Part shown: one piece after another, positions 12,705 through 24,983 of the stretch
How the letters are laid out: each line of letters starts with the position of its first letter
How positions within the stretch are numbered: the stretch's first letter is position 1
Made by a program: the position numbers and the translations under genes
From: Thermoplasmatota archaeon
GTDB lineage: Archaea > Thermoplasmatota > E2 > DHVEG-1
Assembly (NCBI GenBank): GCA_030619765.1
Contig: JAUXAU010000028.1
Location: forward strand, 1 to 36,926
DNA length: 36,926 bases
Direction of reading: 5' to 3'
Notes under the pieces: generated by a model
What the model saw: the letters and a program-made list of their open reading frames with translations, nothing else
Told to the model about the DNA's origin: nothing
The model's database searches: none

Positions 12705-12779
12705 AGCGGGGTGGGGTAGTCAGGAAATCCCGACGGGCCCATAACCCGTAGATCAATGGTTCAAATCCATTCCCCGCTA
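12705..12779 (+). tRNA. Initiator tRNA-Met (anticodon CAU)
   Basis: AGCGGGG (12705-12711) pairs with CCCCGCT (12772-12778), followed by discriminator A. The T-arm is AATGG-TTCAAAT-CCATT. The anticodon arm ACGGG-CCCATAA-CCCGT has three consecutive G:C pairs next to the loop, and the first pair is A1:U72; both are marks of the archaeal initiator rather than the elongator tRNA. There is no intron, and CCA is not encoded. Confidence 0.93.
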
Positions 12780-23520: not shown

Positions 23521-23639
23521 TTTACCTACATATTAAAATGCTTTGTAATTTTATAAATTTATCTATATTAAGTTTTACAATCTCTTATAAACATCGTAGG
23601 CAACATGGAGAGTTTATTTCTCATATAAAAAGGAAAGCC

Positions 23640-23965
23640 ACAATTGGTTTTTGGACGGGATGGAGGTACCCCTCGAGAAAGGAGAGATAGGATGCACGTG
23701 GATGAAAGAGGTACCTCATTTTTAGGAGGAAGAGTTGTAAACTAGCGTGCTCTTTGGGATGGTGGAATCATAGAGATGGGGTTCTTTTAATTCTGGTGTA
23801 CGCGACATACGGATTATGTTCCCCCAAGTTTAACCTGCTCAGCATAATTATTATGTGGATTGTAGAGATCGCGCTTAGTTGAAGTGACCACTGAGCGGGT
23901 GATAAGTTTCTCCATATTTTATCCCTTCACCGCCTATCGCCATGCATTTATGCTTGGCAAAACCC
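23640..23965. ncRNA. Candidate structured RNA locus, unidentified
   Basis: No coding frame of useful length is seen between 23521 and 24044, yet 23641-23700 has 31 of 60 G+C against 9 of 60 just before it. In AT-rich genomes such islands commonly mark structured RNA. GAGGTACC (about 23666) can pair with GGTACCTC (about 23710), and GCGGGTG-ATAA (23896-23906) with TTAT...CACCGC (about 23919-23934). CCATGCAT/ATGCTTGG makes a hairpin near 23939-23957. A TATA-like CATATAAAAAGG (about 23622) suggests plus-strand transcription; TTTATATATTAATT read on the minus strand (about 23975-23990) would serve the other strand. Hallmarks of SRP RNA, RNase P RNA or tRNA were not found. Confidence 0.35.
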
Positions 23966-24044
23966 AGATGAATTAATTAATATATAAATTTTTCTGTCTT
24001 TGCATGGCATAAGTGATAATCAAAAACGAAATGCATAAATAGTG

Positions 24045-24983
24045 ATGTTTTTATCTAATTTTGTGGAAAGTTATCAAAAAGAATTGGCCTCAATTAAAAG
24101 TATTCTTAAAAAGAATCCTAGAGGAATGACTGTATCAGATGTATCAAGAAAAATGAAGATTAATAGAAATTCTGTCGCAAAATATTTGGATATTCTCTTG
24201 ATTTCAGGACATGTAGAAATGGTTACTTTTGGTCCAGCAAAAGTATTCTTTCCATCTAGAAGGATTCCCTTATCGACCATGTTAAATTTTACATCAGATT
24301 TTATAATACTGTTGGATAGAGACCTAAGAATCATACAGGCAAATGAAAATTTTCTAAGTCTGATGGATATTGAACGTGAATCTATTCTGGGCAATAGAAT
24401 CTATGATTCCTCGAAAGCATTTTTTAAAATTCCAGAAGTATTAACAAACATTAAAAATGCTCTAGATGGAAAAGAAACAACAATAGAAACAAGTGTTCAA
24501 ATTAGATCTGAGAAAATTTATTTTAAAATAAAACATATTCCAACGACTTTTGATGATGGGGAACCTGGAGTAACCCTGATTATCAAGGACATCACTCAGC
24601 AAAAAAGAACAGAAAGAAAAATGACACAAGCAGTTAGAGAATGGGAAACAACATTCGATTCAATAACAGACATGGTCTCCATTCATGACAAAGATTTCAA
24701 TATTATTAAGATAAACAAAGCTTTTGCTGAATTTTTACAAGATAAACCCGAGAAATTCATTGGGAAAAAATGCTATGAGATAATCCATGGTGCAAAAAAA
24801 CCACATTCGAATTGTCCATGCCAACAAACACAATTAACAAAAAAATCCTTTATTGTTGAATTCTTTGAACCACATCTAGGAAAACATCTAGAGCTTTCAG
24901 CATCTCCAATTATCGATGAGGAGGGAGAAATTTCTGGTTCTGTCCACATTATTAAAGATATAACTGAACGAAAGAATTCATAA
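24045..24983 (+). CDS. Winged-helix/PAS-PAS sensor regulator
   Basis: The protein has 312 residues. An N-terminal helix-turn-helix (about 12-60, MTVSDVSRKMKINRNSVAKYLDIL) is followed by two PAS domains (about 72-185 and 200-310), the second ending SVHIIKDITERK. The second PAS contains CYEIIHG...HSNCPCQQT, a Cys/His pattern often seen in PAS domains and possibly redox- or cofactor-related. There is no kinase domain, so this is a one-component regulator whose signal is unknown. ATG 24045 follows an AT-rich TATA-like stretch (about 24006-24019), so the mRNA may be leaderless. It stands just after the GC-rich non-coding locus. Confidence 0.85.
   Translation: MFLSNFVESYQKELASIKSILKKNPRGMTVSDVSRKMKINRNSVAKYLDILLISGHVEMVTFGPAKVFFPSRRIPLSTMLNFTSDFIILLDRDLRIIQANENFLSLMDIERESILGNRIYDSSKAFFKIPEVLTNIKNALDGKETTIETSVQIRSEKIYFKIKHIPTTFDDGEPGVTLIIKDITQQKRTERKMTQAVREWETTFDSITDMVSIHDKDFNIIKINKAFAEFLQDKPEKFIGKKCYEIIHGAKKPHSNCPCQQTQLTKKSFIVEFFEPHLGKHLELSASPIIDEEGEISGSVHIIKDITERKNS

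Follow-up and report, generated by a model that had tools for sequence, protein, structure and literature searches.

Composition of the island and search for known RNAs

What kind of element is the G+C-rich, apparently noncoding island at positions 23640 to 23965 of contig JAUXAU010000028.1 from a Thermoplasmatota archaeon, all 36,926 nucleotides of which were analyzed here (referred to as the window)? An earlier note on this DNA had offered two answers, a lineage-specific structured RNA or else a decayed element. Our recount of the G+C contrast described there gave identical values, 31 of 60 at 23641-23700 against 9 of 60 at 23521-23580. Across the island, 146 of 326 positions (45%) are G or C, compared with 29 of 119 in the left flank, 17 of 76 in the right flank, and 36% in the whole window, in which 5% of all 326-bp segments are equally GC-rich. 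The lack of a usable reading frame was confirmed (no ORF of at least 60 amino acids lies within 23521-24041), and the inverted repeats are present as reported, GAGGTACC at 23663-23670 and GAGGTACCTC at 23708-23717.

When 4227 Rfam families were searched against the window, as the note had suggested, only a tRNA at 12705 passed the gathering cutoff; the island matched no family at that cutoff, and its sub-threshold matches had E values of 2.4 or worse. This agrees with the earlier failure to see SRP, RNase P, or tRNA hallmarks there, and the genome carries its archaeal SRP RNA (RF01857) at G000:C92:28054-28369 and its archaeal RNase P RNA (RF00373) at G000:C29:14892-15186. Folding of the island as a single sequence gave energies that were unremarkable relative to chance on either strand (z = -1.3 on the plus strand and -0.2 on the minus strand), so that the fold of the island alone is not diagnostic of an RNA; it was conservation that revealed the RNA instead.

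Conservation and genomic neighborhood

A DNA search of 99 genomes, including that of the window, found long matches in all four other genomes of the genus (78 to 91% identity) and partial matches in three further genera of the family. In the alignment, the blocks kept between genera lie upstream of the PAS-HTH gene and include, as the most notable, two GAGGTACC palindromes flanking a GGGATGC motif. A DNA pattern built from the conserved blocks occurred in 14 of the 52 genomes of the order, with no match for the reversed control; 13 of the 14 have an ortholog of the HTH gene, and the locus of the last one (G014) is cut by a contig end. In the named-genome collection the pattern was found in 16 contigs, 12 of which are Thermoplasmatota or "Euryarchaeota" metagenome-assembled genomes. 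The other four (two Pyrobaculum, one Roseburia, and one Nitrososphaerales) were rejected as chance matches, the rest of the layout being missing.

Besides, we searched 80 genomes of the class with a covariance model of the hairpin described below. At E < 1e-5 it matched 27 of the 45 family genomes (in the window at 23651-23735, E 1.6e-17); neither the 18 remaining members of the family nor the 35 class genomes outside it gave a match at this level. The 27 are made up of all 26 genomes with a PAS-HTH ortholog and of G014, whose contig ends beside the RNA. The model (R1) and its alignment were made on the plus strand, the strand assignment being revised to minus later, and its sequences were mostly taken from upstream of HTH orthologs, so that the co-occurrence in 26 of 26 genomes is partly ascertained; the DNA pattern is independent of this choice. 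The HTH gene adjoins the RNA in 26 of 26 genomes, and the gene on the far side varies by genome (M28 peptidase, response regulator, CN-hydrolase, RFC-like AAA ATPase, or NFACT). Because the HTH neighbor is constant and the far-side gene is variable, it is the regulator, and not the gene on the far side, with which the RNA is linked.

On these comparisons, the island is very probably a conserved RNA gene. The proposal of a lineage-specific structured RNA holds up well, given conserved DNA within the genus, a covariance model restricted to the family, and a negative Rfam search. A decayed transposon or gene, the other answer of the earlier note, has a negligible probability: the element is a single conserved copy with structure and synteny kept, and the signature pattern occurred in none of the viral contigs. 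The conserved block, the promoter spacing, and the covariance-model match place the putative gene at 23640 to 23958 on the minus strand. The RNA would be about 310 to 320 nt long, with its 5' end near 23955, as placed from the TATA box, and its 3' end at about 23640 to 23620.

Strand, promoter, and 3' end

A minus-strand TATA-like match with its BRE (AGAAAAA-TTTATATA, 23981-23994) stands at the expected place in the alignment. In 25 of the 26 loci a TATA box stands at a nearly constant distance, and L035, the remaining one, has a slight variant, TTTTTATATT; the A-rich BRE-like stretch precedes the box, and the predicted start is near 23955. The TATA-like elements that the earlier note had seen on both sides of the island do exist, but only the right-hand ones are conserved. 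Over the 182 cells of the main stem, 169 pairs are Watson-Crick, 11 are G-U on the minus strand only, and 2 are G-U on the plus strand only. Furthermore, T-runs that follow the hairpin on the minus strand form a possible oligo(U) terminator at 23622-23640; 15 of the 24 loci counted have a T-run of at least five within 60 nt past the hairpin, where 6.1 would be expected, two of the 26 loci, L093 (not found) and L036 (too short), being left out of the count. The conserved TATA box, the wobble asymmetry of 11 to 2, and the T-runs together favor the minus strand, and the RNA almost certainly lies there, opposite to its sensor-regulator neighbor. An own promoter, a structured body, and a terminator-like 3' end are what a trans-acting antisense small RNA should have, and all three are indicated here by comparison only.

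The same evidence bears on two other readings of the locus. An RNA read on the plus strand, in the direction of the PAS-HTH gene, would fit the slightly better single-sequence fold of that strand and the TATA-like box at 23622 in the window. This box is not kept within the genus, being absent in L030, L032, and L033, and the conserved promoter and the wobble asymmetry both point to the minus strand, which makes such an RNA very improbable. The adjacency noticed before is therefore real, the HTH gene adjoining the RNA, but the RNA does not stand "just before" the regulator in the sense of leading into it, since it is divergent and on the minus strand. We consider it even less probable that the element serves the next gene on the minus strand, in the window that of the M28 peptidase, as its 5' leader or as a riboswitch. 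It does share the strand of this gene and lies about 120 bp upstream of its start, but the downstream gene differs between genera, and the T-runs come after the hairpin.

The 3' hairpin and its C-rich core

Read on the minus strand, the 3' domain (23663-23717) consists of the 5' strand of stem P1, a linker with the core GCAUCCCAU, an inner hairpin P2, and the 3' strand of P1. P1 pairs GAGGUAC (23711-23717) with GUACCUC (23663-23669) and is the stem of the 182-cell count; P2 (23670-23685) abuts its 3' strand; and the exposed C-rich core, GCAUCCUAUC in the window and GCAUCCCAUC in most relatives, occupies 23686-23695. P2 varies in sequence and length with its pairing kept: the summed stem length over 25 loci was 118, compared with 65.9 in shuffles, none of 300 being as high, although the sequences are related and not independent, so that this gives no strict probability. 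The test dropped L093, where no 3' strand of P1 was found, and kept L098 despite a misplaced motif. P1 is nearly invariant, and covariation in it is accordingly slight; in a MAFFT alignment with P1 and P2 in a fixed register, 84.0% of the cells were paired, compared with 82.6% in shuffles, a weak covariation signal. The comparison of relatives proposed by the earlier note thus found a conserved locus with P2 pairing kept, but only slight covariation in P1. The two-strand fold also proposed there, unremarkable for the single sequence, was far below column shuffles for the consensus of the hairpin alignment (-27.0 on the minus strand and -25.8 on the plus strand, z about -10 on both). As both strands are that far below shuffles, the consensus fold supports structure and not strand.

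In composition, the RNA is rich in C and poor in G. A count of CAUCCC over the 26 RNAs gave 54, compared with 6.3 expected from dinucleotide shuffles, and the motif is found in each of the 26, in many of them in several copies. The exposed core is more frequent than chance predicts, as would be looked for in an antisense small RNA with C-rich loops. An extra hairpin, GUGCCGAU..AUCGGCAC, whose loop holds this core as well, is present in some genera and shows, by eye, changes such as that of GUGCCG/CGGCAC to GUGCCA/UGGCAC. Intramolecular pairing of a 5' GGGAU with the AUCCC cores was dropped as a candidate; by eye, the 5' partner changes without compensation.

The PAS-HTH regulator and operator-like boxes

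The neighbor on the plus strand (24063-24983, with GTG 24063 as the conserved start) is a winged-HTH regulator with two PAS domains, as predicted from Pfam PAS matches and an AlphaFold2 model (mean pLDDT, 87.5) that shows an HHH-EE arrangement followed by two PAS-like domains. Orthologs are present in 26 of the 45 family genomes, and most of the invariant columns among 18 aligned orthologs are within the HTH part. The BRE/TATA of the regulator gene (CGAAATGCATAAATAG, 24027-24042, plus strand) is nearly invariant in the 26 loci; its box, CGAAATGCATAAATA, stands about 25 nt ahead of the start, which implies a leaderless mRNA. The second PAS domain contains a cysteine-rich stretch (CYEIIHGAKKPHSNCPC), and in several distant genera this domain is not covered by the match; a role in redox or metal sensing is a guess.

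Two operator-like boxes of the TTGC..GCAA type lie between the divergent promoters. Box 1 (23937-23960), a palindrome recognized by alignment, covers the predicted RNA start, and box 2 (23999-24024), seen in the alignment, is upstream of the BRE/TATA of the regulator. The strict box-1 pattern was found in 15 of the 45 family genomes, at the RNA locus in 14 of them, and is nearly unique to the locus; the window's own box 1 deviates from it. Matches away from the locus were limited to one in G043, without an HTH ortholog or RNA nearby, and one in G006. We infer that the protein is a local regulator of the RNA and of itself, which is the natural reading of the boxes, and regulation of the RNA by the neighboring HTH-PAS protein is probable.

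A proposed mechanism and its alternatives

The reading toward which we lean, with little more than even confidence, is a sensor-controlled, C-rich structured regulatory or antisense RNA, some 310 nt long and read off the minus strand, divergently from the winged-HTH/PAS regulator gene. The regulator would bind the two boxes between the divergent promoters and switch the RNA, and itself, on or off upon a PAS signal. The RNA would then pair through its C-rich core or cores with G-rich sequences near ribosome binding sites, and its target mRNAs would be expected to carry a GGGAUGGGAUGC-like site. Antisense action via the core seems to us an evenly balanced proposition.

RsaE/RoxS of Firmicutes, as summarized in PMC4409812, has several exposed C-rich regions able to pair with G-rich Shine-Dalgarno sequences and is under the control of a redox sensor. 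The window RNA resembles it in its exposed C-rich regions and, as far as its control can be deduced, in sensor-controlled expression; it differs from this bacterial RNA in its core, CAUCCCAU, and in its presumed control by a neighboring one-component PAS-HTH regulator.

Two other functions of the same minus-strand transcript have to be weighed. The core might be a protein-binding site, so that the RNA would hold an RNA-binding protein, as its sponge or scaffold, in the way that CsrB does for CsrA, and would not act as an antisense RNA. The core is strictly kept across genera and recurs in an otherwise different small RNA (see below), it is repeated within many of the RNAs, and pairing with ftsZ, the candidate target considered below, is weak in four of seven genomes, all of which would suit a protein ligand. 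Such a ligand leaves unexplained that the small hairpin RNA complements the ftsZ leader in a second, separate 9-nt part, and we regard this explanation as unlikely.

Alternatively, the transcript might be a small mRNA, in which a short peptide is encoded by a frame with GGTGA and ATG, with the conserved hairpin as 3' untranslated region and terminator. In the window, a 33-codon ORF follows the GGTGA motif (23814-23915, minus strand, by ORF inspection); 19 of the 26 loci contain GGTGA, for which 2.7 occurrences would be expected, usually with an ATG after it; and over 42 codons L093, L094, and L096 (genera g20 and g21) have a third-position excess and a pS roughly threefold higher than pN. Against this, pS is close to pN in the window's genus and the coding signature is reversed in g12, the frames range from 26 to 98 codons, with several loci having no start after the motif, and tblastn found the peptide at E < 1e-10 in only 3 of 80 class genomes, those of L093, L094, and L096. 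A small mRNA is an improbable account of the locus, and the 33-codon ORF is probably not a conserved protein in the window's genus. In L093, L094, and L096, a frame of about 70 to 77 codons in the 5' half of the RNA shows signs of selection on the protein, and in the g20/g21 subclade the RNA may be dual-function.

A second small RNA and the ftsZ leader

Weak covariance-model matches showed the core in other hairpins, and a search with GCATCCCATYYC then led to a second RNA. We inspected 31 matches in 30 fetched loci, 15 in long open frames and 16 not; stop codons bias the reversed control of this pattern, and we did not count it as proof. The second RNA is an unannotated hairpin of the form GGAAGGA..GGCUGGUAGUU..GUGCAUCCCAUCCCCUCC..GCCAGCC..UCCUUCC with a TATA box upstream. 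Its pattern occurs in 61 of 389 genomes of the phylum (reversed control, 0). All 45 family genomes have it, as do 4 of the 7 remaining genomes of the order, 8 of the 28 remaining genomes of the class, and 4 genomes outside. Judged by eye and by fold, this second RNA shares with the window RNA a layout of P1 strand, core, short stem, and P1 strand. Six GCATCCCATYYC sites are present in the window's genome (G000): two belong to copies of the small hairpin RNA, another three fall within coding frames, and the sixth is antisense between a ribbon-helix-helix (RHH) gene and ftsZ. The two copies of the hairpin RNA, with core GUGCAUCCCAUCCC or UUGCAUCCCAUCCC, are at G000:C9:2850-2885 and G000:C51:2301-2327 (L183 and L186). 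Further possible small RNAs, in which a TATA-like box is followed by a C-rich sequence with GCAUCCCAUC, were seen at G014:C20:1008-1080 (L137) and G021:C103:33635-33708 (L139), the core of the latter sitting inside a GGGGAUAC/GUAUCCCC hairpin.

In the ftsZ leader of the window's genome, AGGGGAUGGGAUGCAC is complementary to 16 nt and AACUACCAG to 9 nt of the small hairpin RNA. An mRNA hairpin lies between the two complementary parts, which are followed by AGGAGG and the ftsZ start. This RHH-ftsZ leader is in contig C45 (L196:1462-1536), and its hairpin varies in sequence with the pairing kept, as seen by eye. The two-part leader pattern occurs in 36 of 389 genomes, 34 of them in the family (34 of 45) and 2 in another family of the order, compared with three matches for the reversed control. 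It stood upstream of ftsZ where inspected, the identity of FtsZ being checked for the gene of the window's genome. No Rfam match at gathering scores was found in seven of these loci, four with the small hairpin RNA and three with the leader. From the complementarity, the small hairpin RNA looks aimed at the cell division gene ftsZ. DicF of E. coli, which is prophage-borne and bacterial, is reportedly a trans-acting small RNA that lowers ftsZ expression, a parallel that fits the small hairpin RNA more than the window RNA.

Since this other, family-wide small RNA with the same core is complementary to the ftsZ leader in two parts, we see in this leader (GGGGAUGGGAUGCAC) the best candidate for a target of the window RNA as well. 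We examined pairing in seven genomes for which both sequences were fetched, of about 20 having both. For the window RNA and its own ftsZ leader, the longest unbroken helix was 15 nt, and none of 100 shuffles was as good. In G002 and G020, 1 of 100 shuffles was as good, and in G006 (24 of 100), G021 (7 of 100), G038 (25 of 100), and G022 (22 of 100) the helix was little or no better than chance. Three of the seven genomes were thus clearly above shuffles for this helix, and whole-duplex energies were unremarkable in most of the seven. That ftsZ is a target of the window RNA is possible but doubtful.

In the arrangement that we propose for the RHH-ftsZ mRNA, the RNA would mask the ribosome binding site of the second cistron. 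sRNA162 of Methanosarcina mazei does so with an unpaired linker that base-pairs inside a bicistronic mRNA, according to the summary in PMC3510493. It too is an archaeal RNA, with the arrangement that we propose here, but it belongs to another lineage, the effect is experimentally shown there and predicted here, and the two are likened by description and not by sequence. An RHH gene ahead of ftsZ also recalls the CdrS-FtsZ2 operon of haloarchaea, in which an RHH gene is co-transcribed with an ftsZ gene (PMC7439475); the abstract of that paper does not mention RNA control, and the protein upstream of ftsZ here scores 34.9 bits, below the CdrS cutoff of 100.

Significance

The locus belongs to no described Rfam RNA family, and the RNA gene had previously gone unrecognized. 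To our knowledge, no small RNA of this archaeal lineage has been studied, and in the open-license part of PMC we found no paper that names an RNA from this locus or an archaeal RNA directed at ftsZ. As the RNA is paired with a dedicated sensor-regulator, both its signal and its target can be tested. Following the shared core brought up another RNA, likewise unannotated, and a conserved leader ahead of ftsZ; from these comes the falsifiable proposal that RNA controls cell division in archaea. A speculative idea is that, in Thermoplasmata, FtsZ synthesis might be governed by a two-input antisense circuit made up of the window RNA and the small hairpin RNA, in which the hairpin RNA would set the base level and the PAS-HTH regulator would add an environmental signal through the window RNA. 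If true, this would mean that cell division in this archaeal lineage is under RNA control.
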